Program-made: the position numbers and the translations under genes | Notes under the pieces: generated by a model | What the model saw: the letters and a program-made list of their open reading frames with translations, nothing else | What the model was told of the DNA's origin: nothing | Databases searched by the model: none | In this document: positions 759 to 20,914 of the stretch, in pieces | How the letters are laid out: each line of letters opens with the position of its first letter | Position numbering within the stretch: position 1 is the stretch's first letter | Origin: Roseovarius gaetbuli | GTDB taxonomy: Bacteria; Pseudomonadota; Alphaproteobacteria; Rhodobacterales; Rhodobacteraceae | Assembly: GCF_900172365.1 (NCBI RefSeq) | Contig: NZ_FWFJ01000026.1 | Coordinates: 1 to 57,902, forward strand | Length of the DNA stretch: 57,902 nt | Direction: 5' to 3'

Positions 759-1578
759 GTGCATAGCCCCTGGATCGCAGCCCTGTCCGCGCTTTTTCTC
801 TGGTGGTTTTCCACCGGGGCGATCCTTGTGGTGGTGCGGATTGCCGACCGCTCTGGCGCGGTAGCGCGGCGTTTGGCGGTGTTTGCCACGCTGCCGGTGA
901 TGGCGCTTGGCATCTGGGGGTATGAAACGACATTGAGCACCCTCACGACCGGAGCGGTCTATGGCGCGTTTTTGTCGGCACTGGCGATCTGGGGCTGGAT
1001 CGAGCTTGCGTTTCTGACCGGTGCGATTGCCGGGCCGAACACCCATCCCTGCCCCGAGAACCTGCCGGGGTGGGAGAGGTTCATTCGCGCCTGGGGGACG
1101 ATTGCCTATCACGAGATGGTGTTGGTGGGCGTGCTGATCATCATGTGACTTTATGGCCAGGGGGCGGCAAATGCCTTTGGCCTCTGGACGTTTACGTTGT
1201 TATACTTTGCGCGCATCACCGCCAAGTTGAACCTGTTTCTGGGCGTGCCAAAGATCAACACCGAATTTCTGCCCCACGCGTTGCGCCATCTGGCCAGTCA
1301 TTTCCGTGTGGGTCCGTTCAGCTGGTTCTTTCCGATCTCGGTCTCGGCGCTTTCCTTTGCCGTCGCCTGTTGGCTTGAACGGCGTTATTCGGCATCGAGC
1401 ATCGAGCATCGAGGCAGGCGTTGGCTTTGCCCTCTTGGCGGCAATAAGCGGGCTGGCGCTTTTGGAACACTGGTTGATGGTGTTGCCGCTGCCCGATGCG
1501 AAACTCTGGCGCTGGATGCTTCCTGCGCCAAAATCTTCAAATGACACGACAAGACCGGAGGGACACCATGGATTTTGA
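759..1578 (+). pseudogene. puhE: puhE (photosynthetic complex assembly protein), two lesions
   Basis: This is a DUF3623/PuhE membrane protein, a factor for photosynthetic reaction-centre assembly, with a GTG start at 759 after an AAGAAGAAGGA ribosome site. Recognisable blocks are the N-terminal WWFSTGAILVVVR, then GWIELAFLTG, then ARITAKLNLFLGVP, and a C-terminal [17 protein letters not shown]. Two lesions disrupt it. An in-frame TGA sits at 1146-1148 (codon 130), with the family sequence continuing in the same frame beyond it. A 7-bp tandem triplication at 1392-1412 shifts the frame; removing one copy restores it. The reconstructed gene would end at 1578, overlapping hemA, which matches the conserved puhE-hemA pairing. 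The gene order says this was real PGC, now inactive. Confidence 0.9.
1392..1412 (+). repeat. GCATCGA x3 tandem repeat in puhE
   Basis: Three perfect head-to-tail copies of the 7-mer GCATCGA. Seven is not a multiple of three, so expansion from two to three copies shifts the frame. Deleting one copy in silico rejoins the PuhE N-terminal frame to the family-typical C-terminus. Confidence 0.9.
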
Positions 1579-2782
1579 CGCCATGTTCACGGCGCAACTT
1601 GATGCGCTGAAAGAGGAAGGCAACTATCCCATTTTCGCAGAGTTGGAGCGGCAATGCGGCGCCTTTCCGCGCGCCAGGAGCCATGACGAGGATACGCCCG
1701 ACCAGGTGACGGTCTGGTGCTCGAACGACTATCTCGGGATGGGGCAACACCCCACTGTGCGTGAGGCGATGAAAGATGCGGTCGATCGCTGTGGCACCGG
1801 TGCCGACGGGACCCGGAACATTTCGGGCACCGCGCATCACCACCTTGTATTGGAACGCGAGCTTGCCGATTTGCACGGCAAGGAGGGCGCGCTTTTCTTC
1901 ACCTCGGGCTATGTTTCGAACTGGGCGGCCCTGTCGACGCTTGGGTCGCGCCTGCCGGATGCGGTGATCCTGTCGGATGCGCTCAACCACGCCAGCATGA
2001 TCGAAGGCATCCGCCACAGCCGCGCGAAAAAGGTGATCTGGAATCACAACGACCCCGAAGATCTTGACCGCAAGCTGGCCGCCCTGCCTGCCAATGCCCC
2101 CAAGATCGTGGCGTTCGAGAGCGTCTATTCGATGGATGGCGACATCAGCCCGATGGCCGAGATCGTCGAAGTCGCCGAAAAGCACGGCGCGATGACCTAT
2201 CTTGACGAGGTTCATGCCGTCGGCCTTTACGGGCCGCGTGGCGGTGGTGTTTCGGAACAGCTTGGCCTCGCCGACCGGATCACCCTGATCGAGGGGACGT
2301 TGGGCAAGGCCTATGGCTGTATGGGGGGCTATGTGACCGGATCGGCGGCGATGTGCGATTTCATCCGCTCGTTCGCCAGCGGGTTCATCTTTACCACCGC
2401 CCTGCCGCCCGCCGTGGCCGCCGCCGCCACCGCCAGCATCCGCCATCTCAAGGTAAGCTCGGACGAGCGCCGCGCGCAGAAGGCCCAGGTGGCACAGCTG
2501 CGCGCCAAGCTTGATGCCCAGGGCATTCCGCATCTCGACAACCCAAGCCACATCATCCCGGTGATGATCAAGAATCCGGTCAAATGCCGGATGCTGGCCG
2601 ATATCCTGATGCGCGATTACGGGATCTATGTGCAGCCGATCAATTATCCCACCGTGCCCAAGGGCCCCGAGCGGCTTCGTTTCACGCCGGGGCCGTTGCA
2701 TTCGGATGCGGATATCGACCACCTTGTGGCGGCGCTCACAACCTTGTGGAAGCAATGCGCGATCGCCCACGCGGTCGCCTGA
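1568..2782 (+). CDS. hemA: 5-aminolevulinate synthase
   Basis: A pyridoxal-phosphate enzyme that condenses glycine with succinyl-CoA to 5-aminolevulinate, the first step of haem and bacteriochlorophyll synthesis by the Shemin (C4) pathway. The product is 404 aa, the usual ALAS length. Visible features are the [11 protein letters not shown] entry motif, the [11 protein letters not shown] segment, an HNxxSM block (HASM), [10 protein letters not shown] with the cofactor Asp, and the EGTLGKAYG region with the Schiff-base Lys. The start ATG at 1568 follows GGAGG, which is better supported than upstream in-frame codons lying in puhE. It is intact despite decay of the surrounding PGC, as expected for an enzyme still needed for haem. 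Confidence 0.97.
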
Positions 2783-2869
2783 CAAGAGCGTGAGCAGGGG
2801 CGCGCGGCCATTGACTTGCGACCCACGTTTACGCCTTAGTAGAGGGGTACGTAAGCGCGAGGCCACCCC

Positions 2870-3316
2870 ATGACACTCAAGCTAACCGCGATTCACTTTA
2901 CACTGGCTTGCGTGCTTGTCTCGGCGCTGTCCCTGCCTGCTTTCGGGGCGGACATTGCCCGTGGCAAGACCATTTTCAAGGATTGCCGGGCCTGTCATTC
3001 GGTGGTCGACGAGACCGAAACCGTGATCATTCGCGGCGGGCGCACCGGGCCCAACCTTTATGGCGTGGTTGGTCGGCACGCCGGAAGCATGCCGAACTTT
3101 TACTATTCAACCTCGATGGTTAGCGCCGGCAAACAGGGGTTGCGCTGGAATGAAGAGGATTTCGTGGTCTATGTGAAGGACGCGACCCATTTCCTGCGCG
3201 CCTATCTTGATGATCCAAGCGCGCGCGGCAAGATGGCCTATAAATTGAAGGATAGCGCCAAGGCGCGTGATGTCTGGGCGTACCTCGAAAGCGTCACCAG
3301 CGCGCCTGCCAAATAG
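2870..3316 (+). CDS. cycA: Cytochrome c2-type class I c cytochrome
   Basis: A soluble periplasmic electron carrier of 148 aa with a cleavable signal peptide ending near AFGA. The haem site is CRACH, and the sixth-ligand Met probably lies in the KMAYKL segment near the C-terminus. Class I c2/c551 proteins of this size re-reduce the photo-oxidised reaction centre or its cytochrome subunit and also act in respiration. In roseobacters and Rhodobacter it lies directly after hemA, as here (87-bp gap). It is intact and converges with the dxs pseudogene 11 bp away. Because it can serve respiration, its preservation does not imply a working photosystem. Confidence 0.9.
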   Translation: MTLKLTAIHFTLACVLVSALSLPAFGADIARGKTIFKDCRACHSVVDETETVIIRGGRTGPNLYGVVGRHAGSMPNFYYSTSMVSAGKQGLRWNEEDFVVYVKDATHFLRAYLDDPSARGKMAYKLKDSAKARDVWAYLESVTSAPAK

Positions 3317-3327
3317 GCGCACGGGCT

Positions 3328-5188
3328 TCAGAGAATCTGGCGCAGCGGCACAACCTCGGCGCGCGCCGTCAGGGCATCCTTGATCGTCGCGGCGATATCG
3401 CCCGCGCTCATCCCTGCATCGGCATACATTTCCGCCGGGCTTGCCTGCTCGATAAAGCGATCCGGCAGGCAAATAGTGCGCAGCACCAGCCCCTTGTCGA
3501 ACGCCCTGCGACGCGCCAGCTCGTGCATGACGATGGCGCCAAAGCCGCCCATTGCGCCCTGTTCGACGGTGATCAGGGCGCGGTGGTGCGTGACCAGCTG
3601 CATCAAGAGGTCAGCATCTAGCGGCTTGGCAAAGCGGGCATCGGCGACGGTGGCCGAAATCCCCTCGTCGCCAAACGCATCAGCCGCCGCAAGGCATTCG
3701 GCAAGATGTCCGCCAAAGGACAGGACCGCCACATCTTCGCCCTCGCGGATCACCCGGCCCTTGCCAATCGGCAAGGCCACGCCCCGCGTCGGCAGGGCCA
3801 CCCCGCGCCCGGCGCCGCGCGGATAGCGAAAGGCAATCGGGCCATCGTCATGCGCGGCGGCCGTGGCCACCATATGCATCAGGTCCGCCTCATCCGCCGC
3901 TGCCATTACGGTAAACCCCGGCAGGTTGGCGAGATAGCCGATGTCGAACGCCCCGGCGTGGGTCGCACCGTCGGCGCCCACAAGACCGGCCCGATCAATG
4001 GCACAGCGCACCGGAAGCCGCTGAAGCGCGACGTCATGCACCACCTGATCATAGGCGCGTTGCAGGAAGGTCGAACAGATCGCGCAAAACGGCCTGAGCC
4101 CGCTGGCGGCCATGCCGGCGGCAAAGGTCACGCCATGCTGTTCGGCAATCCCGACGTCAAATACCCGCGCGGGAAAGCGCTCGGCCATCGCATCAAGCCC
4201 GGTGCCGCCGGGCATCGCTGCGGTGATCGCCACGACCCGGTCGTCGCGCGCGGCCTCATCGGCCAAAGCCGCGCCAAAGACCGAGGTATAAGACGGCGCG
4301 CCGCCGCTCGATTTGGCCTGTGTGCCGGTGCCGACGTCAAACTTGGCGACGCCGTGATACTTGTCGGCACTGGTCTCGGCGGGGGCATAGCCCTTGCCCT
4401 TGACCGTGCAGAAATGGATCAAAACCGGCCCGCAGAACGCTTAAAAGCTGACCCATGTCATGACCATCAATCGGGCCAACATATTGAAACCCAAGCTCTT
4501 CGAACACGGTGCCGCTTCCGGTCAGGCCAGTCACCAGTTGACGCGCGCGGCGCGCGCCTTCGCGCATCGGCGGCGGCAAGGCGGCCTCGAATCCTTCGGC
4601 CAGCGATGTCATCCGCGCCAGCGGCTCGCTGGCGTACATCCGGCTGAGGTAAGACGACATCGCGCCGACCGGCGGGGCGATGCTCATTTCATTGTCGTTG
4701 AGAATGACAAACAGGCGGCACCCCTCGGAGCCCGCATTGTTGAGCGCCTCATAGGCCATGCCGACACTGATCGCGCCATCGCCGATCACGGCAATCGCGT
4801 CGCCCGTCGCCTGCCCCATGTCGCGGCCCACGGCAAAGCCGAGCGCGGCGCTGATCGCGGTCAAACCATGCGCGGCGCCGAACGGATCATGGGCGCTTTC
4901 GCTGCGTTTGGTAAAGCCCGACAGCCCGCCCTTTTGGCGCAGGGTACGGATGCGATCACGCCGCCCGGTCAGGATTTTATGAGGGTAACACTAGTGGCCC
5001 ACGTCCCAGATCAGCTTGTCCACCGGCGTATTGAAGACCGCGTGAATGGCAACGCTCAACTCGACCACCCCAAGGCTTGACGCAAGGTGCCCACCGGTTT
5101 CCGACACCGCCGAAATCACCTCCTGGCGCAGATCAGAGGGGCCGGCAACGCGATCCAAAAGCGGTGTGTGGGGTTTGGTATGTGTCAT
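3328..5188 (-). pseudogene. dxs: PGC-linked dxs (1-deoxyxylulose-5-phosphate synthase), three lesions
   Basis: DXS makes 1-deoxy-D-xylulose 5-phosphate from pyruvate and glyceraldehyde 3-phosphate for isoprenoid (phytyl and carotenoid) synthesis. The thiamin-diphosphate domain ([16 protein letters not shown]) and the transketolase C-terminal domains ([22 protein letters not shown]) are easily recognised. Lesions are a short N-terminal deletion after PSDLR that removes about a dozen residues, an in-frame TAG at 4991-4993 between GH and CYPHK where the family has Q (CAG to TAG), and a frame-shifting deletion near 4437 between LLSVLR and [14 protein letters not shown]. The last open part (to 3328) is the long C-terminal half. 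Many roseobacters have a second dxs elsewhere, so loss here could be tolerated. Confidence 0.92.
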
Positions 5189-5305
5189 CGCGCCGTCCCT
5201 TCCGTGGTGCCTTTGCACCGGCCTCGCAACCAAAGAGGGGCGCGCGGACGGCGCTTTTCGTGATGTGGCGAGGGCGGCGCGATTGGCACCGCCCCACGCC
5301 CAGTC

Positions 5306-6397
5306 CTAGTTGCCGTAATCCGGCGCATCCGTGCTGGCCAGTTCGGGCCAGTCCTTGATCACATTGGTGCCTTGCAGCGGTTGCTGATAACCCTTGTGAC
5401 AGGTCTTGCAGGCCGCCTTGGGCGCATCGCCCTGCATCGGGCCAAGCCGGTTTTCAGGAAGCAACCCGCCGACCGGAACAAGATAGTCGTTGTTCAGCTC
5501 CTGAACCATCGAGATGCCAAGCAGCTCGGTGCCCCATTGCGGTGTGACCTGCGATCCATCGTAAAACGCGCGGGTGTTGTGGCAAAAGACACAGTTCACC
5601 CCAAGCGAGTTGGCGATATAGTTCATCAGCGCATAGGTCCGCTCGGCGTTTTGGATGCCGGGATAGCCGTCTTTGCCGGGGATACCGGCGACGCGGCTGT
5701 CAAGGTCATGCACCTTGATGCTTTCACCATCGAGCAGGAACTTTTCAAGCGCATCCGAGGGCAGCGATGAATACTGGCTTAGCGGGGTGACCCGGTTCTG
5801 ATTGGCCGACCAGCCCTCGACGGTTTCGTTGACCGGGGTGATCTTGAACCAGATATCGCTTGGCACCGGCTGGCCACGGTGACAGGTAAAGCAGGTCACG
5901 CCGACCTGTTTGTTGGCGTTCACATGGCCATCCCAGTTCTCGTTGATGTTCTGGGTCATCGCGATCATCAGGCTCGCGACCGTCGACTGATAGCTTTCGG
6001 GATCTTCAAACAGATCGGGAATGCCGGTCCATGACCGCATCGCCACCAGCAGGCGGTCATAGTTTTCCACCGTAAGATCGGCAAAGGCGGGCACCACGTT
6101 TTCGCGCACATCGCCTGCGGTCTGCTCCCCGCCCTGCGGCACCACCGGCGCCGAGGTCGAGGCGAGAAACACCTCGATGCCGGGATCAGGCGCGGCCAGG
6201 TCGGCCTTGAACTCTGGCCGCGACATGCCGGTGCCGCGTGGCCCCGTCTGCAGGCTCTCGGTGGCCATGGGTTGGCCCCATGTCACCAACAGAGCCGCCA
6301 CAAAGACCGCGCCCCCGACCACACCGACAGCAACGGCAGGCCCATAGATATCCTTGGGGTTTTCGCGGTTCCATTTATCAAACCATTTCGGAAACAT
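5306..6397 (-). CDS. pufC: Reaction-centre cytochrome c subunit (triheme form)
   Basis: The membrane-anchored periplasmic cytochrome that reduces the special pair of the type II reaction centre. The product is 363 aa with an uncleaved N-terminal membrane segment (GPAVAVGVVGGAVFVAALLV). Three CxxCH haem sites are visible: CFTCH, CVFCH and CKTCH. The usual first haem site of tetraheme PufC is absent: the stretch after SWTG reads IPDLFEDPESYQSTV with no cysteine. Triheme PufC is known from Rhodovulum sulfidophilum, so this need not be a defect. It starts 3 bp after the pufM stop in the puf operon. The frame is complete. Confidence 0.95.
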   Translation of the reverse strand: MFPKWFDKWNRENPKDIYGPAVAVGVVGGAVFVAALLVTWGQPMATESLQTGPRGTGMSRPEFKADLAAPDPGIEVFLASTSAPVVPQGGEQTAGDVRENVVPAFADLTVENYDRLLVAMRSWTGIPDLFEDPESYQSTVASLMIAMTQNINENWDGHVNANKQVGVTCFTCHRGQPVPSDIWFKITPVNETVEGWSANQNRVTPLSQYSSLPSDALEKFLLDGESIKVHDLDSRVAGIPGKDGYPGIQNAERTYALMNYIANSLGVNCVFCHNTRAFYDGSQVTPQWGTELLGISMVQELNNDYLVPVGGLLPENRLGPMQGDAPKAACKTCHKGYQQPLQGTNVIKDWPELASTDAPDYGN

Positions 6398-6400
6398 GGA

Positions 6401-7387
6401 TCATTCCCCCCGACCAATAAAGGCTTCATAAGAGCCGTAAGCGTCATAGCCATAAGACCCGTCATAGAGCGGTGCAAAGTTGTGCTCTTGCGCCCAGATG
6501 AACCAGTTGTCGACAACCGTGCCCGTCAGCAATATCCCGATGCCGCCGGTGATCGGCGTGAGAACGGCGAACCACCAGGCCCAACGGTGAATACCCTCCA
6601 TCGTGGCGTTAAAGCCCATGGTCCAGCGCCAGAACAGGGCGGCGCGTTCAGAGGCTGTGCCGCGGTCGAATATCTGCTCCAGCTCGCGGTCGCCGCCAAA
6701 GCGGGTGACCGCCAGAATGGTCGCGCCATGCATCGCAAACAGCAAGACAGAGCCATAAAGGAACACGATCGAGAAACAGTGGAACGGGTTGTAGTAAAGA
6801 TTGCCGTAGCGGATGCTGAACGCGGTGGTCCAATCGAGGTGCGGGAAGATGCCGTAAGGCACGGCCTCACTCCACGAGCCCATCAGGATCGGACGGAACA
6901 GCCCCAGCACAAGGAACAACCAGATCGCCGAGGCAAAGGCCCAGGCCACGTGCTTGCCCATCTTTTGCTGTTGCGCCAATTGGTAGGTGCGCATCCACCA
7001 GGCCATGACCGACACCAAAAGGAAGAACGAGCTGATGATATACCAGCCCCCGTCATTGAGCGGCGGCATCGACAGACCGTATTTCGGGCTTGGCGGTTCA
7101 AGCGCCAGCCAGAACAGCTGTCGCAGGAATTCCGGCAGGGACCAGCCGACCTGTGCCAGCATGTTCATGCCGACGATAAAGAACCACATCAACCCGCTTG
7201 CTAGGCTTACGACGCCCAGCATTCCAAGGTTGACCGGCCCGATCTGGGCATTGCCGATCCAGCCAACGAGGGTGGAAAAGAACGGCTTGCCTGCGCGTTC
7301 GGCCATCATCTCGCCGCTGTCATCCATGCCCCATTCAGGTTTGCCCTGAACTTGCACTTGGGTGAAGATATTTTGATACTCAGCCAT
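6401..7387 (-). CDS. pufM: Photosynthetic reaction centre M subunit
   Basis: One of the two core subunits that bind the bacteriochlorophyll special pair, bacteriopheophytin, quinone and non-haem iron. The product is 328 aa, starting at [11 protein letters not shown]; the ATG is at 7387, after a GGGGGG stretch on the coding strand. Five hydrophobic helices are evident, and the family segments [36 protein letters not shown] and GIHRWAWW supply the pigment and iron histidines. It ends in the usual short tail and is followed immediately by pufC. No lesion is seen. Confidence 0.98.
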
Positions 7388-7389
7388 TG

Positions 7390-8229
7390 TTACATCCCCC
7401 CTTGGCCAGGCCAGATCGGCAACTCCAGCCACCAGTTCCACCATTCAGGCCAGCCTTTGGTCCAGACCGGGCCAGAGATGATGATACAAACCGCCGAGAA
7501 GAACACGGCGTTGATGGCCAGGAGAAACCCCAGCCGGTGAATCCCCAGCGTGCCCACCGAATATCCGATGAGATCGCGAAAGAAGGTATCCTCGTGATCC
7601 GGCGTCTTGGCCTCTTCGCCCTCTTCGGGGTTGGCCGCCGACAGGATCAGACCACCATGCAGCGCAAGCGCCAGGGTGGTGGTAAAGAACAGGGTCACCG
7701 CCAGCATATGCGCCGGGTTGTAATGGAAATGCAGATAGGCATAGCCGGTGTTGGACACCCAATCGAGGTGGCTGAAAATCCCATAGGGAAATCCATGCCC
7801 CCAGGCGCCCATCAGAAGCGGGCGAAAGATCACGAGCGTGACATAGGCGAGAATGGCAAAGCTGAAGGCAAAGGGCACATGGTAACCCATCCCAAGCTTG
7901 CGGCAGATCTCGACTTCGCGCAGCGCCCAGCTGATGAAGGCGGCGGTCGCGCACATCGTAATGATCTGCCAAAGCCCGCCATCCATCAGCGGCGCCATGC
8001 CCAACCCGTATTTAAGGTCAGGCGGCGCGATATTGATTAGCCATGGGTTGAACGTGCCCTGTTGGGACGCCCCCCAAAAAATAAGGAGTGTGCCGAGGAG
8101 GGCGAAAAATGCTGTCGTGACCCCGAAGAAACCGACATAAAAGGGCCCGACCCAAAAATCGAAAAGATCGCCGCCAACCAGCGTTCCCCCGCGGACACGG
8201 TACTTTCTTTCAAAACTGAGCAAAGCCAT
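7390..8229 (-). CDS. pufL: Photosynthetic reaction centre L subunit
   Basis: The second core subunit of the type II reaction centre, 279 aa, starting [15 protein letters not shown] (ATG at 8229), with [18 protein letters not shown] following. Helix and ligand segments [30 protein letters not shown] and [11 protein letters not shown] are those expected for PufL, including the histidines that ligate bacteriochlorophyll and iron. The stop abuts the pufM start (2-bp gap). A GC-rich hairpin lies upstream, between pufA and pufL. The frame is intact. Confidence 0.98.
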
Positions 8230-8292
8230 CACGTGGTCCCCGCGTTGTCCGGCTGTCCGGTCCACCCTGTCAGCCGATAGTTTCGTTAAGTG

Positions 8293-8322
8293 GCTGCGGG
8301 CGAGGCGCGCCCCGCCCGCAGC
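8293..8322 (-). promoter_or_regulatory. pufA-pufL intercistronic hairpin
   Basis: Perfect 10-bp arms GCTGCGGGCG / CGCCCGCAGC enclose a 10-nt loop 20 bp after the pufA stop. In Rhodobacter such a hairpin stabilises the upstream pufBA message and gives more antenna than reaction-centre subunits; the same role is inferred here from position. It has been preserved although the cluster is decaying. Confidence 0.75.
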
Positions 8323-8341
8323 GATTATGTGGGCCGCACGA

Positions 8342-8503
8342 TCACTGCCCGTACTTCGCAGCGGCGATTTCAAACCAGTTGAAACCGTCGGTGCTCAGAA
8401 GCACGAGGTGAATCATTGCAGCCAGCAATAACAGGAATACGCCCTGCGCCACGAACACGCGGCGGGGGTCGAATATCAGCCATACTTTGTAAAACTTAGC
8501 CAT
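8342..8503 (-). CDS. pufA: Light-harvesting 1 alpha subunit
   Basis: A 53-aa single-helix antenna polypeptide that, paired with PufB, binds bacteriochlorophyll in the LH1 ring. It begins [17 protein letters not shown], the classic LH1-alpha N-terminus. A hydrophobic helix follows with the bacteriochlorophyll-ligand His in [11 protein letters not shown], and the short tail is [12 protein letters not shown]. The gene was found by translating the minus strand from ATG at 8503 to TGA at 8342-8344. It lies 14 bp after pufB and 112 bp before pufL. Intact. Confidence 0.96.
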
Positions 8504-8517
8504 TTTCTACCCCTTCC

Positions 8518-8667
8518 TCAGAACCACGGGAACCAGATGAAGGTTGCAATATGTGCAACCACTGCAATCGCCGTGAACAGCCAAAGGCCACTCATGTAGA
8601 CGGAATGCAGCTCCTGGGCCTGCTCGTCGGTGAGACCTGTGAACGACAGGTCGGATTTATCAGCCAT
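8518..8667 (-). CDS. pufB: Light-harvesting 1 beta subunit
   Basis: A 49-aa antenna polypeptide starting [19 protein letters not shown] at 8667, after a GGAGGAAAG ribosome site. The single membrane helix holds the ligand His in the [13 protein letters not shown] segment, and the FIWFPWF ending is typical of LH1-beta. It is the first of the structural puf genes, in the conserved order pufQ-B-A-L-M-C, and is intact. Confidence 0.96.
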
Positions 8668-8721
8668 GAACTTTCCTCCGGAACGTTATGCTGACGTCGC
8701 GAACCCCGCGACCGGGTCCTT

Positions 8722-8740: not shown

Positions 8741-8790
8741 CAGGTTTCTGTCCGCCCGTGACGGGCAGGCAGCTCTTGATCCCGGCCCTT

Positions 8791-9018
8791 TCAGACCGAG
8801 AAAATCAGTGGCGTGGTCCGATCCGCCTCGGCCCAGGCGCGCGCCAGCGGGCCGCGCAGATCAAGGGTCCGGTGCTGGATCACGTCGCGCACCCAACGCG
8901 CGCTTGCAAACGGCAGCGCGAGGGCGAAAATCATTGCAAAGTAAACCTTGAATTCCAGACCACGTCGGCGGGCCTGACGGCTGCGCACCCGTGGCGGATT
9001 TGATGTCATGTCAGTCAT
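8791..9018 (-). CDS. pufQ: PufQ, bacteriochlorophyll synthesis cofactor
   Basis: A small single-span protein of 75 aa found at the head of puf operons, implicated in supplying bacteriochlorophyll precursors to the assembling complexes. The N-terminus is basic (RVRSRQARRRGLEFKVYF), followed by one hydrophobic helix (AMIFALALPFAS) and a short cytoplasmic or periplasmic tail. The ATG at 9018 lies 4 bp after the ancestral bchZ stop, which fits the bchCXYZ-puf superoperon. Recognition is by position and by the RRxGLEFKVYFA block. Intact. Confidence 0.88.
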   Translation of the reverse strand: MTDMTSNPPRVRSRQARRRGLEFKVYFAMIFALALPFASARWVRDVIQHRTLDLRGPLARAWAEADRTTPLIFSV

Positions 9019-9022
9019 CGTT

Positions 9023-10498: not shown

Positions 10499-10512
10499 GG
10501 CACACCTGCCGG

Positions 10513-12236: not shown

Positions 12237-13238
12237 TCATGCCTCATCATAGACCACCTCAAGGGACGCTTTCGGCGCGGCGTATTTACCGCGCATGTCC
12301 TCATCCGTGGCGGGTTCAAGCACGATATCGCCGCCGGTATCCTTGCTGTCGAACAGCGCCAGAAGCCCGTCCTGATCAAGCGGATCAGGGCGCACGGGCG
12401 GCGCGATTGAAACCGCATCGGCCAGCTCTGCAAACAGGTCGCCCCATTGGCTCTGCGCGGTGCCGACGATCTGGTAATTGGCGGATTTCTTGCGCAGATC
12501 GTCATCCTGCAGGATTGCCGCCAGAACCGGAATGTTCACCGATTTGGCAAAGGCCTGCGCCTCGCCGGAATGGTCGTCCTTGTTGATCACAAGGCCCGCG
12601 ACCCCGACATTGCCGCCCAGCTTGCGGAAATATTCCACCGCCGAGCAGACGTTATTGGCCACGTAAAGCGACTGAAGGTCGTTGGAGGTCACCAGAATAA
12701 CCTTTTGCGCCATGTCCCGCGCAATCGGCAAACCAAAACCGCCACACACCACATCGCCCAGAAAATCGAGCAGGACGTAATCAAAATCCCAGTCGTGAAA
12801 CCCGAGCTTTTCCAAAAGCTCGAAGCCATGGATGATTCCGCGCCCGCCACAGCCGCGCCCAACCTCGGGGCCACCCAGCTCCATCGCGAAAACACCGCCG
12901 CGCTTGAAGCAGACATCGCCGATCTTGACCGGCTCGCCGGCCAGGTTCTTCTTGGTCGAGGTCTCGATGATCGTCGGACAGGCCTTGCCGCCGAACAACA
13001 GGCTTGTGGTGTCGGATTTCGGATCACAGCCAATCAGCAACACGCGCTTGCCGCGCTCGGCCATCATGTGGCTCAGGTTGGCGAGGGTAAAGGATTTGCC
13101 GATGCCACCCTTGCCATAGATGGCGATGATCTGGGTCTTTGATTTCGGCTCTTCGGTGACGATATCGGCCAGATCCTGATGCGCCTCGTCGCGCAGGCGT
13201 TGGTAGAAATCCTTGAGATTCGGTATGTCGTCCTTCAC
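12237..13238 (-). CDS. bchX: Chlorophyllide a reductase iron protein subunit X
   Basis: A NifH-like ATPase of 333 aa that delivers electrons to BchYZ. The P-loop [10 protein letters not shown], the switch segment [12 protein letters not shown] and the 4Fe-4S cysteine region (GRGCGGRG, with [10 protein letters not shown]) are all intact. The start is GTG at 13238, overlapping the bchC stop (GTGA), as expected for a translationally coupled bchC-bchX pair. No lesion is visible. Confidence 0.96.
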
Positions 13239-13967
13239 GCCGCGTCCTTCCAGTTGAGTATCATTTTCAGGCAGGTCGGATCGCTGAACGCGGTCCGATA
13301 GGCCTGTTGCGCGTCTGTGGGGAGTGCCTGATGGGTGATCAGCCCGGCCAGCGACAGGGCGCCGCTTTCCACAAGCGCGCGGGTCGCGGTCAGGTCGTCA
13401 TGCGACCACTCCGCAGCCGCGCGTAGGCGCGCCTCTTTCATAAATGCCATCGGAAAGGCAAAGCTCAGCGCGTCGGGGTAAAAACCTGCCAGAACAACCT
13501 CGCCGGCCTTGGCCAGACGGCCGATCAGGGTGTTGAGAATCTCGGGATCGCCCGAGGCGTCATAGATCGCGCGGTAATCCGCGTGACCCGCTCGGCCTTG
13601 GTCACAAGACGCTGCGACGCGCCGCCAAAAAGGCCAAAGGCATCGGCGAAACAATCGGCGCCGGGCACGAATACATGATCGCCAACGCGATAGCCGGTGC
13701 CGGGTGCGGCCTCGACCACTTCGCCCGCGGCCTCATAGCCGGGAACCAGCGGACATCCCATGCCCGGAAAGGGCGGCATCTTGCCCGACCAGAACAGTTT
13801 TTCCGTGCCTGTCGAGATGCCGGAGTGGGCCACATCAACCACCAGATCACCCGTACCCGGAGCCTTGAGCTTTAGGGTTTCAACGCCAAGGTCTTCGGGA
13901 CCTTTCAGATGAAAGCGCAGGTTTCGATGACGGCCTCCGATCACAATCCCGGCGTGAAAAAATGCAT
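13235..13967 (-). pseudogene. bchC: bchC (bacteriochlorophyllide dehydrogenase) with internal deletion
   Basis: BchC oxidises the 3-hydroxyethyl group late in bacteriochlorophyll a synthesis; it is a zinc-free medium-chain dehydrogenase of about 315 aa. The N-terminal half is clear ([46 protein letters not shown]), and so is the C-terminal part ([43 protein letters not shown]). The join near 13575-13590 drops roughly 90-100 residues, including the nucleotide-binding core, and shifts the frame. The first codons also do not read cleanly: the family-like frame begins only at [12 protein letters not shown], so the start is uncertain (candidate ATG 13967). Clearly non-functional. Confidence 0.92.
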
Positions 13968-13980
13968 GGAGATTCTCTTG

Positions 13981-13998
13981 TGTAAGTCTATATGCACA
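13981..13998. promoter_or_regulatory. PpsR/CrtJ operator, bchC promoter, site 1
   Basis: TGTAAGTCTATATGCACA fits TGT-N12-ACA exactly. It lies in the bchC upstream region about 14 bp before the candidate start. PpsR/CrtJ represses bch, crt and puc genes aerobically through paired sites of this type. Confidence 0.75.
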
Positions 13999-14006
13999 TC
14001 TATTTG

Positions 14007-14024
14007 CGTCCATCATTCTTTACA
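14007..14024. promoter_or_regulatory. Degenerate PpsR/CrtJ operator, bchC promoter, site 2
   Basis: CGTCCATCATTCTTTACA is one base away from TGT-N12-ACA (C instead of the first T). It lies exactly 8 bp from site 1, the spacing known for the paired CrtJ sites of the Rhodobacter bchC promoter. It is read as a mutated second operator. Confidence 0.55.
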
Positions 14025-14042
14025 CCTTTGCGCCGCATGGCG

Positions 14043-15163
14043 TCACGCGGACTTGACGCAACAGACCGCGCTTGCAACGTAGGGCCTTGGCGCGAAGGGA
14101 AATTTGACATCCTGAAACCCCGCCTCACGGCACATTTCCGCGATGCGCTCGGGCGACCTAGCGCGCCCGGTCCCCATCGCCATCGTGTAAAATGCGAAAT
14201 AGACATCGCCCTCGGGTGCGGGACGGGCGCCACCGGCCATCGGCTCGGCGATGATCAGGCGGCCATCGGGCGGCAAGGCAGCATGAACCTTGGCCAAGAG
14301 CGCGCGCACGCTTGCATCGTCATGGTCATAGAGCACCCGGACCAGCGATATTGCATCGCATCCCACGGGCAGGGCATCGTCGCGAAACGAGCCCCGCGAA
14401 AGCGCGATGCGCGCGCCAAGATCGAGGCTCTCCAGCCGGGTTTGCGCCGATGAAATCACCTCGGGCAGGTCAAACAACGTCAGCGACAGGCCAGGGTATT
14501 GCGCCGCAACCTCTTGCAAAAACGCACCTGAGCCGCCGCCCCCTGAGCGACACCACACGCAGCACATCCTGCGCCACCAAGCCGTGCGATTGCGCCATGA
14601 GGTCGGAGTATCGGCCCGCAATCTCGGGCTCCATTTCGGCCGCCGCCCCAAAGACATAAGGCCAGAAGCGCGCCAATTCGGTCTCGCGCTCGCCACGCAA
14701 AAGGGTCACCGGATCGGCCATATCGGCGTAAAACGCACCGTGATGACGGATCATCGCCTCAAGCCCCGGCACGCCCAAAATCGCGCCCCCCCCTGCGCGA
14801 GAGGGCAAAGCGCCCGTCGCGGCGACCCTTCAACAGGCCAAGCGCCGCCCCCGCCTGAAGCAGGATTTGCATGTGCTCTTCGGGCACGCCCGCCCGCGGA
14901 CCAAGATCGCGCGCAGAGTGCGGGGCCTCGGCGAGACGCTGAAACACCTCAAGTTCGACCAGGGCCGAAAGAACCTGAGATTGAACAAAGCCTTGAACAA
15001 TATCGAAAATCGCCGCTCCATCGCGCCGCGCCACGCCGCGCGTCAGGGGGAAACCGCTGGCCCATCGTTGAAATCCGGGGCGCGCGATCAGCCGGGTGAT
15101 CCAGCCGCCCGGCCCGCGCTTCGGGCGCGCCGGGGTCTCGGGAAGATCCCCCGTTGCCATCAT
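14043..15163 (-). pseudogene. crtF: crtF (hydroxyneurosporene O-methyltransferase), two frameshifts
   Basis: CrtF methylates the 1-hydroxyl of acyclic carotenoids in the spheroidene pathway. The N-terminal dimerisation region (DIVQGFVQSQVLSALVELEV), the middle (GVPGLEAMIRHHGAFYADM) and the SAM-binding C-terminal half (LTLFDLPEVI, SLVRVLYDHDD) are all recognised but lie in different frames. Lesion 1 is a run of eight C (14786-14793; G8 on the coding strand), where one base too many shifts the frame after FALSRRG. Lesion 2 near 14535-14560 removes roughly ten residues before the GGGSG motif and shifts the frame again. The start is ATG 15163 or 15160, just after crtE. Confidence 0.9.
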
Positions 15164-15167
15164 GCCC

Positions 15168-16062
15168 CTAGGCCCGCATCCGCGCAGGCAGGACCGGCAT
15201 GATCCGCTCGGCCTGCATCTGTACCATCTGCGCCAGCTGCGCCTCGCCCTCGCAGGACGGAATCGACGAAATCGCCCCCGCCAGAATATCCTTGAGCCGG
15301 TCCGTCGCGCCAAGCACGCCAAATTCGGTCACCGCGTTAGGCCGCCCGTACAGGTCATCCTGACCGACGGGTTTACCCAGGGTATCGGCATCCAAAAGCG
15401 CATCGCGCAGGTCATCGGCCACCTGAAAGGCGGCACCGATGCGCGCGCCAAGCTCGTATCAGGGCTCTGGCTCATGGCCGGCGGCAATCGCGCCCATTTG
15501 GGTCGCGGCAATGAACAACGCGCCGGTTTTCGAGCGGTGATAGGCCTCAAGATCAACCTCGGCCTCGCTTTCCCAGCCCTGCCCCGCGCAAATGCCGTTC
15601 GGCATGCCGCTGCGCCGGTCCAGCGACAGGATAAGGTGATTTGCCCGCGTCGCATCCTGCGGGCCGACCCGCGCCAGCACCTCAAACGCCATGATAATAA
15701 GCCTATCGCCGGTCAGCACCGCAAGCGGTTCGCTAAAGGCGCGATGCACCGACGGCTTGCCGCGCCGGATGTCGGCATCGTCAAATCAGGGCAGATCATC
15801 GTGCACGAGGCTGGCGCAGTGAATAAGTTCAAGCGCAACGGCGGCGGCATCTGAAATCTCGGGGCGATCATCGCCACAAGCCATGGCGACCGACATCAGG
15901 ATCGTCGGGCGAATGCGTGCGCCGCCGGGGCTTGTGGCATAATCAAGCGCGCGCAAGGCGGGTCGGCGCCATATCGGTCTGACCACGGGTGATCGCCTCG
16001 CCAACAGCCTTTTGAATGCGGGTCTTGATGGTGATCAGCGCGTCCTTTCCGCCGTATGTCAT
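15168..16062 (-). pseudogene. crtE: crtE (geranylgeranyl diphosphate synthase), frameshift and two stops
   Basis: This is a polyprenyl synthase of the GGPP type that feeds carotenoid and phytyl synthesis. The first Asp-rich region (VHDDLP...FDDADIRRG), GICAGQGWESEA and VADDLRD (second Asp-rich region) are present. Lesions are a 2-bp (GC) loss in a GC run near 15948-15955 before LDYATSPGG, an in-frame TGA at 15786-15788 right after DDLP, and an in-frame TGA at 15459-15461 after EPEP where a W is likely. The candidate ATG at 16062 overlaps a PpsR operator, so the true start is uncertain. The stop is 5 bp before crtF. Confidence 0.9.
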
Positions 16063-16074
16063 TTATATATGACA
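16057..16074. promoter_or_regulatory. PpsR/CrtJ operator 1, crtE-crtD intergenic region
   Basis: TGTCATTTATATATGACA is a perfect TGT-N12-ACA palindrome, with TGTCA/TGACA arms. It lies between the divergent crtE and crtD genes. Confidence 0.8.
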
Positions 16075-16081
16075 TCTTATA

Positions 16082-16099
16082 TGTAAACTATCATGGACA
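16082..16099. promoter_or_regulatory. PpsR/CrtJ operator 2, crtE-crtD intergenic region
   Basis: TGTAAACTATCATGGACA fits TGT-N12-ACA. It is 7 bp from operator 1, so the two form a tandem pair able to repress both divergent crt genes. Both sites here are intact, unlike the pair at bchC. Confidence 0.75.
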
Positions 16100-16127
16100 G
16101 CTTGCGGGCGCGAGTCAACAATCCCTT

Positions 16128-17669
16128 ATGAAAACCGCCCAAGCCTCTTCAGCCGCGCACGGCAAGGTCGTGGGCGTCGGCATCGCGGGCCTTGCGGCGG
16201 CGGCGCGGCTTGCGCATGCGGGCCTCGGCGTCACGGTGCTCGAGCGCCACGCCGCCCCCGGCGGCAAGATGCGATGTGTGCCGTCATCGGCTGGGCCGGT
16301 GGATGCCGGGCCAACGGTTTTGCCACTGCGGCCGGTGTTCGAGGCCCTGTTCGCCTCGCTTGATGAACGGCTTGAAGATCACCTGACGCTGGTGGCGCAA
16401 CCGGTTCTTGCGCGGCATTTCTGGCCGTGCGGCAGCACGCTTGACCTGTTTGCCCAAGAGGCGCAAAGCGCCGCCGCCATAGAGACCTTCGCAGGCGCGC
16501 GCGCCGCCGCGCAATTCACCGCCTTTTGTGCCCGTGCCCGCCGCCTTTTCGCGGGTTTTGACGGGCCAATGATGCAAGCCGCCGCCCCCTCGCCGCTTGC
16601 ACTTGGCCGGGTCGTGGCGCGCGATCCGGGCCTGTTGCGCGCGATGGCGCCACTTTCAAGCCTTGCGGGCACGCTGGCGCGACAGTTCGATGACCGCGTC
16701 TGGCGCAGCTTTTTGGCCGCTATGCCACCTATGTCGGCGGCTCGCCCTATCGCTCGCCCGCGCTTTTGTCGCTGATCTGGCAGGCCGAGGCGGCAGGTGT
16801 CTGGGTGGTCAAGGGCGGCATGCACCGGCTTGCCCAGAGCCTTGCCGCGCTTGCCACTGCGCGCGGCGCCACCTTTCGATACAACGCCCATGTCACCCGG
16901 ATCGACACGGCGGACGGGGCGGTTAGCGGCGTAACCCTTGCCGATGACAGCCGGATCGAGGCCGATAGCGTTTTGTTCAACGGCGATCCGCGCGCTTGCC
17001 AGCGGCCTTCTGGGCCCCGCCGCAACCACCGTTGCGCGCCAGACCCTCAAGGCCGAGCGCAGCCTTTCGGCGCAGGTCTGGGCCTTTGCCGCCAAGTCGG
17101 CGGGCGTCGACCTTGTTCATCACAACGTGTTCTTCTGCGCCGGCCCGAAGGCCGAGTTTGACGATCTGCACGCCGGGCGCCCGCCACGTGCGCCGACGAT
17201 TTACCTCTGCGCGCAGGATCGCGGCCTGCCTGATGCGCCACCCGAGCGTGAACGCTTTGAAATCATCCTGAACGCGCCACCGCTTTGCGGCCTGTCGCAC
17301 CCCTCCGAGGAGTTTGCCCCATGTCAGACACGCACCTTTCTGACCCTGGCCCGCTTCGGGCTGCGCTTCGATCCGCTGCCGGAGGCGTTTGCGCTGACGA
17401 CGCCGGGGCGCTTCGAGCGGCTGTTTCCGGCCAGCCTCGGATCGCTTTACGGGCAGAGCCCGCATGCGATGATGGCGGCGTTTCAGCGCCCGACGGCGCG
17501 CACGCCGATAGCGGGGCTTTACCTTGCGGGGAGCGGGGCGCATCCGGGGGCGGGGGTGCCGATGGCAACGCTCTCCGCCCGGCACGCGGCCGAGGCGATC
17601 TTGAGCGACCGAACTTTAACCTCGACGTGCCCCCAAACGGCTATGCCTGGTGGTACGTCGACGGCATAA
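16128..17669 (+). pseudogene. crtD: crtD (hydroxyneurosporene/methoxyneurosporene desaturase), two frameshifts
   Basis: A FAD-dependent carotenoid 3,4-desaturase of the phytoene-desaturase family. The ATG at 16128 leads into a dinucleotide-binding motif (GVGIAGLAAA) and the family segments PGGKMR and DAGPTVLPLRPVFEALFA, and the far C-terminus is typical (GLYLAGSGAHPGAGVPMA). Lesion 1 near 16704-16707 is a single-base loss, after which FGRYATYVGGSPYRSP is read in another frame. Lesion 2 at about 16989-16995 is a 2-bp (GC) loss in a GC run, after FNGDPRA. The rest reads cleanly to TAA 17667-17669. It is divergent from crtE across two PpsR operators. Confidence 0.9.
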
Positions 17670-18538
17670 GCGATGATGGCAAACGCGCCGTCAGCGTGAT
17701 CGGCTTTATCGGGTCGGTCTTTTCCCCCTGGTATGCCTGGTCGGGGCGGCGCAATCCGGCCAATCATGTCTGTCTGAACGTGGCCACCTACGGCCCCGGC
17801 GGGCGGTTCACCATGACCGATCGGGGCACAAACGCCCTGCGACAGACCCCCGACAGCCTTGTGATCGGGCCCTCCGCGATGCACTGGCGCGACGGGGTTT
17901 GGGTGATTGATATCAATGAGGTATCCTCGCCGCCGTTGATTTCGCGGGTTCAGGGACAGATCCGCCTGACGCCCTCGGCCCTGACCGGGGTCGAGTTGGC
18001 GCTCACGCCGGATGGCGCGCATATCTGGCGTCCCTTTGGGCCGACATCAACCATCGAGGTGGACCTTGATACGCCCGGCTGGCGATGGCAGGGGCACGGC
18101 TATTTCGATGCTAATTTCGGCACCCGCGCGCTTGAACAGGATTTCGAGCGCTGGACATGGGGGCGGTATCCGCTTGGCGGCGGCAGCACCTGTTTTTACG
18201 ACGCCACCCGCCTTGACGGCAGCACGCTTGCCGCAGCGGTGTATTTTGACGCGCAGGGCCACGGCGAGGTGATCGAGCCGCACCCCAAGGCGCGCGTGGC
18301 CCGAAGTCTCTGGGGTGTGGCGCGCGGGACCCGCGCCGATGCCGGGTATCGCCCGAAACAGGTCAAAGCGATGCTGGATGCGCCGTTTTATGCGCGCTCG
18401 GCGGTGCGCACTTGTCTTGACGGCGAAGAAACCGTCGGCGCGCACGAAGCGCTTGATCTCAAACGCTTTCGCAATCCTGTGTTAAAGCCGATGCTGGCGA
18501 TTAGGGTGCCGCGCCGCGCCCGGTGGCGGTTTGATTAA
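17627..18538 (+). CDS. crtC: Acyclic carotenoid 1,2-hydratase
   Basis: CrtC adds water to the psi end group of neurosporene or lycopene in the spheroidene/spirilloxanthin pathways. The frame is open and ends at 18538. Family segments are PPNGYAWWYVDGISDDG, IGFIGSVFSPWYAWSG, FGTRALEQDF and DAPFYARSAVRT. I chose GTG 17627 because the conserved AWWYVDG block lies after it, although this overlaps the crtD end; GTG 17696 (280 aa) is the alternative and gives the length of the Rhodobacter protein. Open frame upstream of 17627 is the crtD overlap and should not be included. With CrtB, CrtE and CrtI lost at this locus the enzyme probably has no substrate. Confidence 0.88.
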   Translation: MPPNGYAWWYVDGISDDGKRAVSVIGFIGSVFSPWYAWSGRRNPANHVCLNVATYGPGGRFTMTDRGTNALRQTPDSLVIGPSAMHWRDGVWVIDINEVSSPPLISRVQGQIRLTPSALTGVELALTPDGAHIWRPFGPTSTIEVDLDTPGWRWQGHGYFDANFGTRALEQDFERWTWGRYPLGGGSTCFYDATRLDGSTLAAAVYFDAQGHGEVIEPHPKARVARSLWGVARGTRADAGYRPKQVKAMLDAPFYARSAVRTCLDGEETVGAHEALDLKRFRNPVLKPMLAIRVPRRARWRFD

Positions 18539-18996
18539 CTTGCCACGTCCGGGTTGAGCCGCAGCACCGAGAGGTTCAGCATTCCAGCGATGCTGACCCA
18601 GACGAGATAGGGGAAAAACAGCATCCCCGCGACGCTATCCACCATCCAGAGCGCAATCATCGTGAGCGCAACAGACAGCCAGAGCAACATCAGAACGATC
18701 AGGCCAAGGCGCATGTTCTTGAGGCCGAAAAACACCGGCGTCCAGAGCCCGTTGAGCGCAATCTGCAAAGACCAGAGCGCCATCGCGATGCCATTGCCAT
18801 CACTGACCGCAACCCGCGCGCCGGCCGCTGCCATGCAGACGTAAAGCAAGGTCCAGACCACCGGGAACATCCAGTTGGGCGGTGTCCAGACGGGTCTTCT
18901 TAGCTTGGCATACCAGTCGCCGGGCATGAAAAGACTGCCGGTCGAGCCCGCGGCGAAACACGCGGCGAGAAAGATCGCGAAGCAAATCCAGATCAT
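18535..18996 (-). CDS. tspO: TspO/MBR tryptophan-rich sensory protein
   Basis: A five-helix outer-membrane or membrane protein of 153 aa homologous to the mitochondrial benzodiazepine receptor. In Rhodobacter it binds tetrapyrroles and modulates photosynthesis gene expression. Visible hallmarks are WYAKLRRPVWTPPNWMFPVVW, the GLWTPVFFGL segment and the WVSIAGMLNLSVLRLNP end. The ATG overlaps the crtB stop (ATGA) and the 3' end overlaps the crtC stop by 4 bp, both as in ancestral PGCs. Intact; it may be retained for porphyrin or stress functions. Confidence 0.95.
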   Translation of the reverse strand: MIWICFAIFLAACFAAGSTGSLFMPGDWYAKLRRPVWTPPNWMFPVVWTLLYVCMAAAGARVAVSDGNGIAMALWSLQIALNGLWTPVFFGLKNMRLGLIVLMLLWLSVALTMIALWMVDSVAGMLFFPYLVWVSIAGMLNLSVLRLNPDVAS

Positions 18997-19241
18997 GCTG
19001 TCCCTCTACCCTGCGCGGCGCTGCACCTCAAGCCTGCGCTACGCTCAAGATCCTGCGCCTTGAGGCGCGCAAGGGCGGCATAGAGCGTATCGCTCCAATC
19101 GGTGGCCGGGGCGGTGGTTCCGGCGGCGGCATCCACCAGAAAGGCGGTTTCGGGCAAGGGGCGCGCATAGATCAGCGGCGAATGCGGCAGGATCGCGCCG
19201 CTGGCAACGCGCAGCATCGCCAGGGCAAGCCAGCCAAGCTT
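18993..19241 (-). pseudogene. crtB: crtB (phytoene synthase) 3' remnant
   Basis: About 80 C-terminal codons of phytoene synthase survive: KLGWLALAMLRVASGAIL, then ARPLPETAFLVDAAAG, then a WSDTLYAALARLKAQD tail. The stop overlaps the tspO ATG, matching the ancestral crtI-crtB-tspO order. Reading 5'-ward, crtB likeness ends at about 19236-19241, where the antisense of bchD begins. The Asp-rich active-site motifs are gone. Assignment rests on the tail pattern and the position, since the catalytic part is missing. Confidence 0.7.
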
Positions 19242-20037
19242 CTGGTGATCGCAGATGAGGTAACGCCCGATGACCTGCGCCTTGCGGCCGAGCTTGTCTA
19301 TCCCCCGCGCGCCACGCAAGTGCCGCAAGAGCCCGACCCGCCCGAGCAAAGCCCGCCCGAAGAGCCACAGGACCAAGCGCAATCAAGCGCCGAACTGGCG
19401 GATATGCCCGACGACATCCTGATCGATGCGATTGCCGCCCTGCTACCGCCTGCCCTGCTCGATCAGCTGACCCGGACCCGGCCAAGCCGCAATACCGCCA
19501 CCGGATCGGGCGCAGGGCAACGACGCAAGACGCGGCAACGCGGCCGCCCGTTGCCTGCGCGGCCCGAGGCGAAGGGCGCGGTCGAACTGTTGCTGGCGCA
19601 GGCCTATGCCCGGCGTGACCGGGTGGCGATGATCGCCTTTCGCGGCACCACCGCCGATGTGATCCTTGCCCCGACCCGCGCCCTTGCACAGGCCAAGCGC
19701 CAACTTGCGGGCCTGCCCGGTGGCGGCGGCACGCCCTTGGCAAGCGCGCTTGAGGCGACCCTTGCCCGTCAGGCACAAGGTCAGGGTCTTAGCCCCGCGA
19801 TCGCGCTTTTGACCGATGCGCGCGCCAATATCACGCTTGAGGGGCAAGGCGACCGCCTACAGGCCGCAGCCGACACCAAACGCCTTGCCAGCCTGTTGCG
19901 GGCCGAGGGTCTGCCGATGATTGTCATCGACACGGCGATGCGGCCGGGCACCGCCCCCGCGCAGCTGGCGTCTGATATGGGCGCGCGCCGATGCGCGGAT
20001 GATTTCGACGGCTGTGACCGCCACGCTTGGGGTTTGA
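19236..20037 (+). pseudogene. bchD: bchD (magnesium chelatase subunit D) multiply deleted remnant
   Basis: BchD is the ATPase-platform/VWA subunit of Mg-chelatase, normally about 550-570 aa. Only C-terminal parts remain: DLRLAAELVYPPRATQVP, then an acidic/Pro-rich linker, GRPLPARP, and EAKGAVELLLAQAYARRDR with RVAMIAFRGTTADVIL. The AAA-like N-terminal half is gone, cut at the junction with crtB. A second, in-frame gap between PLPARP and EAKGAVELLL removes the stretch with the DxSxS MIDAS motif. A third lesion near 19980-20000 shifts the frame just before the true tail, which reads RMISTAVTATLGV and ends at TGA 20035-20037, four bp before bchO. Confidence 0.85.
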
Positions 20038-20040
20038 GCG

Positions 20041-20914
20041 ATGGATTGGGGCCGCGATCTTGCCGCCTGGCCGCTGAATGACGTGTCGCGCCGCATTCAC
20101 CACCCGCCGCATCATTGGCACGTTCAGGAGATGGGCAGCGGGCCGCTTGCTCTGTTGATCCATGGTGCCGGGGCCTCGACCCATAGCTGGCGCGATATCA
20201 TGCCCGCCCTGGCCCGCACCCACCGGGTGATTGCGCTTGATCTGCCCGGTCAGGGGTTTACCCGCGCCGGGGCGCGCCGTCGCCTTGGCCTTGCGGGGAT
20301 GAGTGAGGATATCACCAGCCTTTGCCTGGCCCAAGGCTGGCAGCCGTCATTAATCATTGGCCATTCCGCCGGGGCGGCGGTGGCGGTGGCCCTTGCGCAG
20401 AACCTGGCCGGGCCGACCGGACAGCCACCCGATATCCTGAGGATAAATGCCGCTTTGGGCCGATTTGAAGGGGTTGCCGACTGGCTTTTTCCGGCCTTGG
20501 TCAAGTTGTTGGCGCTCAATCCGTTCACCGCGTCGCGGTTCACCCTCGGAGCGGACAAGACCACCCGCGCGCGCCGTTTGATCGAGGGCACCGGATCACG
20601 GATTTCGCCAGAGGGGCTGGCGCTTTACGGGCGTCTGATCGGGGATCGCGAGCATGTGGATGCGACCTTTCACATGATGGCGCAATGGTCTTTGGACGGG
20701 CTTTTGGAGGCCCTGCCGGGGATCACGGCGTGCCTTCTGGTGACCGGCGCGCACGATCTGGCGGTGCCGCCCGAGACATCCATCCGCGCCGCCAACCGTA
20801 TGCCCCGCGCGCGCGATCACGCTTGACGGGCTCGGGCACCTTGCGCATGAAGAAGACCCCGAGCGCGTTCTTGGCGTGATCCTTGATCCGGCTAACTGGC
20901 CCGACGCGCCCTAG
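20041..20914 (+). pseudogene. bchO: bchO (magnesium chelatase accessory hydrolase), C-terminal frameshift
   Basis: An alpha/beta-hydrolase of the BchO family linked to Mg-chelatase. It begins MDWGRDLAAWPLNDVSRRIH. The oxyanion segment LLIHGAGASTHSW, the nucleophile elbow GHSAGAAVA and the acid region TGAHDLAVPP are present. In the GC run at about 20804-20814 a 2-bp loss shifts the frame, giving a premature TGA at 20824-20826. The correct tail (LDGLGHLAHEEDPERVLGV, with the catalytic-type His) lies in another frame and would end at TAG 20912-20914. About 30 residues are lost. The original stop overlaps the lysR stop on the other strand. Confidence 0.88.

Follow-up and report, generated by a model that had tools for sequence, protein, structure and literature searches.

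A decaying photosynthesis gene cluster, possibly a re-acquired copy, in a Roseovarius genome whose closest relatives share a deletion joint at the same site

The whole of contig C85 (57,902 bases; the window) from the genome of Roseovarius gaetbuli (hereafter W; 4.13 Mb in 144 contigs, estimated to be 99.98% complete) was analyzed, and we found that it carries a broken photosynthesis gene cluster. The genes follow the order puhE, hemA, cyc, dxs, pufCMLABQ, bchZYXC, crtF, crtE, crtD, crtC, tspO, crtB, bchD and bchO. This order is the same as that in the congener Roseovarius sp. 217 (G034; hereafter 217), as expected from a sequence-only reading of the window that had called it canonical. Lesions were called against up to nine Roseovarius relatives; bchD and bchO were compared with 217 alone, and puhE was compared with three relatives. 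The cluster and its right-hand neighbor contain the following features.

759..1575, plus strand: puhE pseudogene by comparison with relatives; W130 changed to TGA at 1146 and a 7-bp tandem duplication (+7 bp) near 1391
1568..2782, plus strand: hemA, 5-aminolevulinate synthase, open; a second copy with 53% identity lies on contig C105
2870..3316, plus strand: cyc, small c-type cytochrome of up to 148 codons, open
3328..5188, minus strand: dxs pseudogene by comparison with relatives; CAA changed to TAG at 4993, -23 bp near 4431 and in-frame -45 bp near 5122
5306..6397, minus strand: pufC, open by its frame and by comparison with relatives
6401..7387, minus strand: pufM, open; 7 changes at positions invariant in 9 aligned relatives
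7390..8229, minus strand: pufL, open; 6 changes at otherwise invariant positions
8342..8503, minus strand: pufA, open
8518..8667, minus strand: pufB, open
8791..9018, minus strand: pufQ, open
9023..10498, minus strand: bchZ pseudogene; W427 changed to TAG at 9220, which cuts off the C-terminal domain
10602..12164, minus strand: bchY, open frame of 520 amino acids; 14 changes at otherwise invariant positions
12237..13238, minus strand: bchX, open
13235..14010, minus strand: bchC pseudogene; -1 bp near 13913 and -247 bp near 13579
14043..15160, minus strand: crtF pseudogene; +1 bp in a G run near 14785 and -23 bp near 14540
15170..16062, minus strand: crtE pseudogene; -2 bp near 15952 and TGA at 15788 and 15461
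16128..17669, plus strand: crtD pseudogene; -1 bp near 16694 and -2 bp near 16989
17675..18538, plus strand: crtC, open
18535..18996, minus strand: tspO, open
18993..19244, minus strand: crtB remnant, about the last 100 codons
19245..19258, no strand: deletion junction; crtI, crtA, bchI and parts of crtB and bchD removed
19259..20040, plus strand: bchD remnant with its 5' part gone; in-frame -213 bp near 19562 and -20 bp near 19984
20041..20913, plus strand: bchO pseudogene; -2 bp near 20813
20911..21843, minus strand: LysR-type regulator, open; the end of this gene is the right edge of the cluster

All ten genes that the sequence-only reading had named as disrupted (puhE, dxs, bchZ, bchC, crtF, crtE, crtD, crtB, bchD and bchO) were found to be broken, and the lesions were confirmed by comparison with Roseovarius relatives. 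We counted 16 frame-breaking lesions, comprising five stops (puhE, dxs, bchZ and crtE twice) and eleven insertions or deletions (indels; two each in bchC, crtF and crtD and one each in puhE, dxs, crtE, bchD and bchO). Besides these, dxs (-45) and bchD (-213) have lost sequence in frame, and crtB and bchD are truncated. The count leaves out length differences at the ends of the chosen coordinates (pufA, bchC, crtE, crtC and bchO), an apparent +8 in bchY, whose 520-residue frame stays open, and, at the ends of crtB, where the alignment is poor, one stop and some indels. Seven of the ten genes (puhE, dxs, bchC, crtF, crtE, crtD and bchD) carried two or more lesions, in line with the earlier claim that most genes would. 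The deletion between crtB and bchD spans about 4.8 kb in 217, and no insertion sequence was seen at its junction (19245..19258).

The lesions were also concentrated in the cluster beyond chance, as had been proposed. In a comparison with proteins of 217 stretches, restricted to matches with at least 0.75 coverage and 60% identity, one pipeline flagged 6 of 17 cluster genes against 8 of 166 others; crtB, bchC, bchD and dxs fall outside the six under these cut-offs. Within the cluster, a block of about 6.0 kb (pufC to pufQ, bchY and bchX) contained no disabling lesion, compared with 16 elsewhere; the probability of such a block is approximately 0.001 by a hand calculation for a block picked post hoc. 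The cluster thus carries several independent disabling lesions above the genome background, and we regard it as almost certainly dead.

The damage exceeds what the sequence-only reading had described, as bchG and bchP, which lie on contig C125, are also hit. A search of W's own genome with 217 DNA from bchP to puhB matched only bchG, a PucC-like gene, bchP and idi, all at the start of C125, plus short repeats. The bchG gene was frameshifted and retained 79% of its length, and bchP had an in-frame deletion that removed 10 conserved residues, with three more lost further on. The stretch between bchG and puhE that is lost here measures about 16 kb in 217. No own-genome match to 217 DNA was found for ppsR, bchF, bchN, bchB, bchH, bchL, bchM, puhA, crtI, crtA or bchI, which covers most of the genes that the sequence-only reading had listed for a search of the remaining genome. 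As for acsF and puhC, both are gone from the site, and neither was matched in the approximately 0.8 Mb of own sequence that was fetched, the rest of the genome not having been searched for them. Among the genes missing here, NCBIfam confirmed the identity in 217 of PpsR, BchF, BchB, BchH, BchL, BchM, PuhA, PuhC and AcsF, as well as of CrtI and BchI; the crtA label in 217 is our assumption, and the genes we take to be ppaA, bchN, lhaA and puhB there were labeled by gene order. Second copies that might compensate for the lesions were limited to paralogues of dxs (a stop-free dxs-type gene on contig C74) and hemA (C105), and for those missing bch, crt and puh genes that were searched for, none was found.

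A protein search gave a consistent picture. With BchX as the query, only bchX itself scored high in W and no match reached the level of BchL, whereas a BchL match of 126-147 bits was present in 36 of 37 congeners with bchX, the exception being G072, which is 72% complete. Two incomplete Roseovarius genomes (G056 and G063) showed a BchL-level match without a high-scoring bchX and may contain partial clusters or assembly gaps. In W, the magnesium chelatase genes bchH and bchI were unmatched and bchD was truncated, and neither the protochlorophyllide reductase genes bchL, bchN and bchB nor puhA were found. Since these bch, puh and crt genes are missing from a genome estimated to be 99.98% complete, bacteriochlorophyll synthesis is predicted to be impossible in W. 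Likewise, because bchH, bchI, bchL, bchB, bchM and puhA were not found, puf, bchX and bchY, although their frames are open, are predicted to be remnants without a use.

To date the inactivation, codon models with a separate ratio of nonsynonymous to synonymous rates (omega) for the W branch were fitted to 16 genes, with 4 to 10 taxa and one topology, using our own implementation. Neutral evolution (omega = 1) on the W branch was rejected in 16 of 16 genes, with twice the log-likelihood difference being at least 6.4 (lowest for tspO). The W-branch omega exceeded the background in 14 of 16 genes, four of them nominally at p < 0.05 (uncorrected), and that of the 217 branch did so in 3 of 16. The open genes of W had more changes at otherwise invariant sites than those of most relatives, and the long-branched L010 exceeded W in some genes (in pufC, 9 vs 5 changes). 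Since omega = 1 was rejected in every gene tested, death looks recent and would be confined to a small last part of the W branch. The codon models did not separate broken from open genes and gave no clear rank; the order of inactivation, which the sequence-only reading had hoped to recover, is therefore only weakly readable.

To identify the closest congeners, a SucA search was performed, which matched 81 of 84 genomes including W. The top congeners were G021 (98%), G020 (96%) and G071 (96%, a partial match), and the BchX protein search revealed that bchX is absent from all three. The cluster was used as a query on six genomes and its right flank on five, with weak matches to paralogues and repeats set aside. 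In G021, G020 and G071 the flanks are present, and all that remains of the cluster is cyc plus 10-60 bases from the end of hemA. In these loci (L301, L302 and L303) the LysR gene directly follows cyc, while here the same LysR gene follows bchO. The stop codons of cyc and LysR are 2 to 10 bases apart in the sisters, so that the joint agrees within about 10 bases. On the left, the G071 scar consists of a decayed bchP tail, approximately 50 bases and then the end of hemA. The bchP tails of the sisters are decayed, with an identity of 0.69 between G021 and G020, compared with 0.84 for functional bchP between W and 217. In all three, cyc was spared with deletions on either side, which suggests that it has a role outside photosynthesis.

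As the sole cluster gene retained in all three sister genomes, cyc can be compared with its flanks, and its history clashes with theirs. W and G021 are sisters in the SucA tree (100% bootstrap; G071 is not in this tree) and in the flank trees (93-100%). The synonymous divergence (dS) between them was 0.12-0.49 in 13 flank genes and 1.18 at cyc; between W and G020 it was 0.33-0.65 in the flanks and 0.80 at cyc. A spurious partial G071 match at 35475-36866 was excluded from the dS ranges. The approximately unbiased (AU) test at cyc rejected a grouping of W with G021 (p = 0.006). In sliding windows over the 3' 300 bases of cyc, identity was 0.78 for W-G021, 0.79-0.81 for W-G020 and 0.87-0.89 for G021-G020. 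Across the right edge of the cluster the W-G021 value rises to about 0.9 in the LysR windows, where W-G020 is at 0.86-0.90 and G021-G020 at 0.88-0.90.

Because the joint is shared by the three sisters and cyc conflicts with its flanks, an ancestral excision followed by re-acquisition in W is favored. The common ancestor of the clade, including the lineage of W, would have excised the cluster and spared cyc, leaving the joint between cyc and LysR as the scar. A donor outside the W/G021/G020 group that had kept its cluster would then have provided what lies between the idi and LysR flanks, and recombination would have brought the new cluster into the old site in the W lineage. Inactivation would have come late and been followed by a build-up of stops, small indels and deletions. 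We give a little better than an even chance to the broken cluster being such a second-hand copy, which entered by recombination after the excision of the original and then died. Only marginally above even do we place the fuller statement that a single chromosomal site saw the loss of photosynthesis, its return and a second loss, with a death so recent that the reaction-centre genes are still open. A re-acquired copy that is dying is thus somewhat more likely than an ancestral copy on its way out. The sequence-only reading had described phototrophy caught in the course of its loss. Our data support a fossilising cluster in this roseobacter, and the description is incomplete in that the cluster is already absent, with one common joint, from the three closest genomes and in that cyc is not the sister copy of that of G021 although the flanks are.

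A close rival is that the cluster is a vertical relic, that is, the original copy of the clade, kept longest in W and now decaying, with the sisters having lost theirs separately or having exchanged a deleted allele; we consider this somewhat below even. Several of the points that weigh against re-acquisition also speak for this alternative. A tree in which the four genomes form one clade was not rejected by the AU test at cyc and fits equally well. The dS of W-G071 at cyc (0.80) was within the flank range, that of G021-G020 (0.65) equaled the top of the flank range, and that of G021-G071 (1.13) was above the range of 0.52-0.98; because G021 is thus far from G071 as well, it may be the cyc of G021 that is unusual. 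The 5' 150 bases of cyc and the region upstream were low for all pairs (0.73 and 0.67 for G021-G020). The conflict between locus tree and species tree was found for one gene only, the short cyc, which is all that the sisters kept of the cluster, and the right break coincides with the edge of the cluster itself. Mosaic recombination occurs within the clade, as in the flank patch at 30.1-30.6 kb. Site and gene order are as in 217, and the W cluster is about as distant from 217 and azorensis as SucA is (trees read by hand), so that its divergence is roughly proportional to that of the species and no distant donor is needed. G020 and G021 (L302 and L303) share metG and an amine oxidase gene to the left of the hemA end (both labels are our assumption). 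This stretch is homologous between the two and was not seen in G071, in W or at the 217 cluster, and one double crossover in W would not be enough to reverse the rearrangement. In addition, the assembly leaves C125 and C85 as separate contigs, and the insertion sequence at their ends recurs at the ends of other contigs. Finally, omega above background was also found on control branches (6 of 12 genes for azo, 7 of 12 for tol, 3 of 12 for G076 and 4 of 11 for L010).

What the vertical relic explains less well is that one joint is common to all three sisters although W pairs with G021, and that the 3' part of cyc sets W apart from G021 and G020 alike. Moreover, by a hand estimate, the bchP tail of G021 seems too decayed for a loss after the split of W and G021. 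An import of the scar into G021 from a G020-like lineage is disfavored.

It is quite unlikely that part of the cluster, such as cyc, hemA, tspO or the puf proteins, was kept for a non-phototrophic use. The open frames of hemA, cyc, puf, bchXY, crtC and tspO would agree with it, as would the retention of cyc by all three sisters with deletions on both sides; yet puf and bchXY are expected to yield no pigment without the missing genes and have changed at otherwise invariant sites, and open frames also fit a recent death. Least probable of all, to the point of being negligible, is that assembly or sequencing errors make sound genes appear broken: several lesions are indels of 1-2 bp (one within a run of G), and the 38-44 kb region of the contig has three further small indels, but read errors do not typically produce substitution stops, of which there are five, deletions as long as 20, 23, 23 and 247 bp or a 7-bp duplication, gene loss is extensive, and the 145 control genes on other contigs had no lesion that survived inspection.

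Error as the main cause was therefore ruled out by the lesion types and the genome control. Among the 8 of 166 non-cluster flags, the six off-contig ones were artefacts (over-extended starts or shadow ORFs), and the two on-contig flags, together with a third from a separate comparison, are the three small indels found outside the cluster on C85 near 38.24, 42.2 and 43.53 kb. In the control genome G023 the same pipeline flagged 8 of 111 genes, these flags not being inspected individually. The indel at 42.2 kb lies in a G9 run. The three indels disrupt one gene, which we take to be cysteine-hydrolase-like, and two tandem genes, presumably LysM/substrate-binding-like. This slight local excess of small indels could be real decay or local error, and it leaves the stops and long deletions of the cluster unexplained. 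The claim that about 14 kb of housekeeping genes at the right end show no lesions held for approximately 44-53.3 kb; the remainder (53.3-57.9 kb) has no counterpart in the 217 stretch compared.

Both 217 and other phototrophic Roseovarius share gene content, order and site with the W cluster, and W and 217 have about 80% DNA identity over puf-bchXYZ. Unlike in 217, about half of the cluster is gone in W, and the ten named genes and bchG are broken. Rhodobacter capsulatus is a working phototroph. Passages of a comparative study of Rhodobacteraceae describe cluster histories that conflict with the species history through horizontal operon transfer, debate losses against transfers as the source of the patchy phototrophy, and infer an early cluster loss and a later replacement in R. 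capsulatus (PMC6052148). As far as those passages go, W resembles R. capsulatus in loss followed by replacement and differs in that its likely re-acquired copy is broken. In Citromicrobium JLT1363, cluster loss was deduced from a site with conserved flanks, and insertion sequences or phages were proposed as triggers in the parts consulted of that report (PMC3338782). That report deals with the finished state only, the site being occupied by one hypothetical gene, whereas W represents an intermediate with finished scars in its sisters. Low bacteriochlorophyll a was reported for Roseovarius mucosus DSM 17069 in the excerpt consulted (PMC4511512). In the draft of this strain (L006), we found one frameshift each in bchC, crtE and crtD, which are also broken in W; unlike in W, the examined locus of this strain yielded no flag for a missing gene. 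A stop near crtD codon 502 was also seen in L009 and L020.

Cluster loss and cluster transfer are thus both already known. Among the titles, abstract openings and passages that the literature search returned, there was no description of a decaying cluster in Roseovarius, nor of an intermediate in decay whose sister species show finished scars, and the earlier papers, to the extent of those passages, compare full clusters with empty sites. What is new is a decaying, probably second-hand cluster next to finished scars. With an intermediate and three scars at one site in four close genomes, the mechanism and tempo of loss become measurable, and a possible failed re-acquisition becomes testable. 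Because pufL and pufM are both open in a genome predicted to lack bacteriochlorophyll, open copies of these genes alone are no proof of phototrophy, which is relevant to pufM-based surveys.

The left end of the window contains two further features.

1..169, plus strand: right end of an insertion sequence resembling the IS3 family, with the end of the second transposase frame and the terminal repeat GACCACCTCT
156..536, minus strand: ORF with a DUF7830 domain (Pfam PF25169), between the insertion sequence and puhE

C85 starts inside this insertion sequence, which we take to belong to the IS3 family, and its end also matches the starts of contigs C109 and C78. Own-genome matches to positions 1-758 were limited to ends of insertion sequences and short intergenic repeats, and the DUF7830 ORF sits within the 590 bases that separate the insertion sequence from puhE. 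C125 starts at the left end, and C85 at the right end, of the same kind of element. One simple insertion between the two contigs was considered and rejected, as the flanks show no common target duplication, whereas C52, C44 and C78 all show GAA. At the other edge of the cluster, the LysR gene and a transporter-like block, presumably of the TRAP type, occupy 20911-26582 between bchO and the next gene; in 217, the same next gene directly follows bchO, without the LysR-transporter block.

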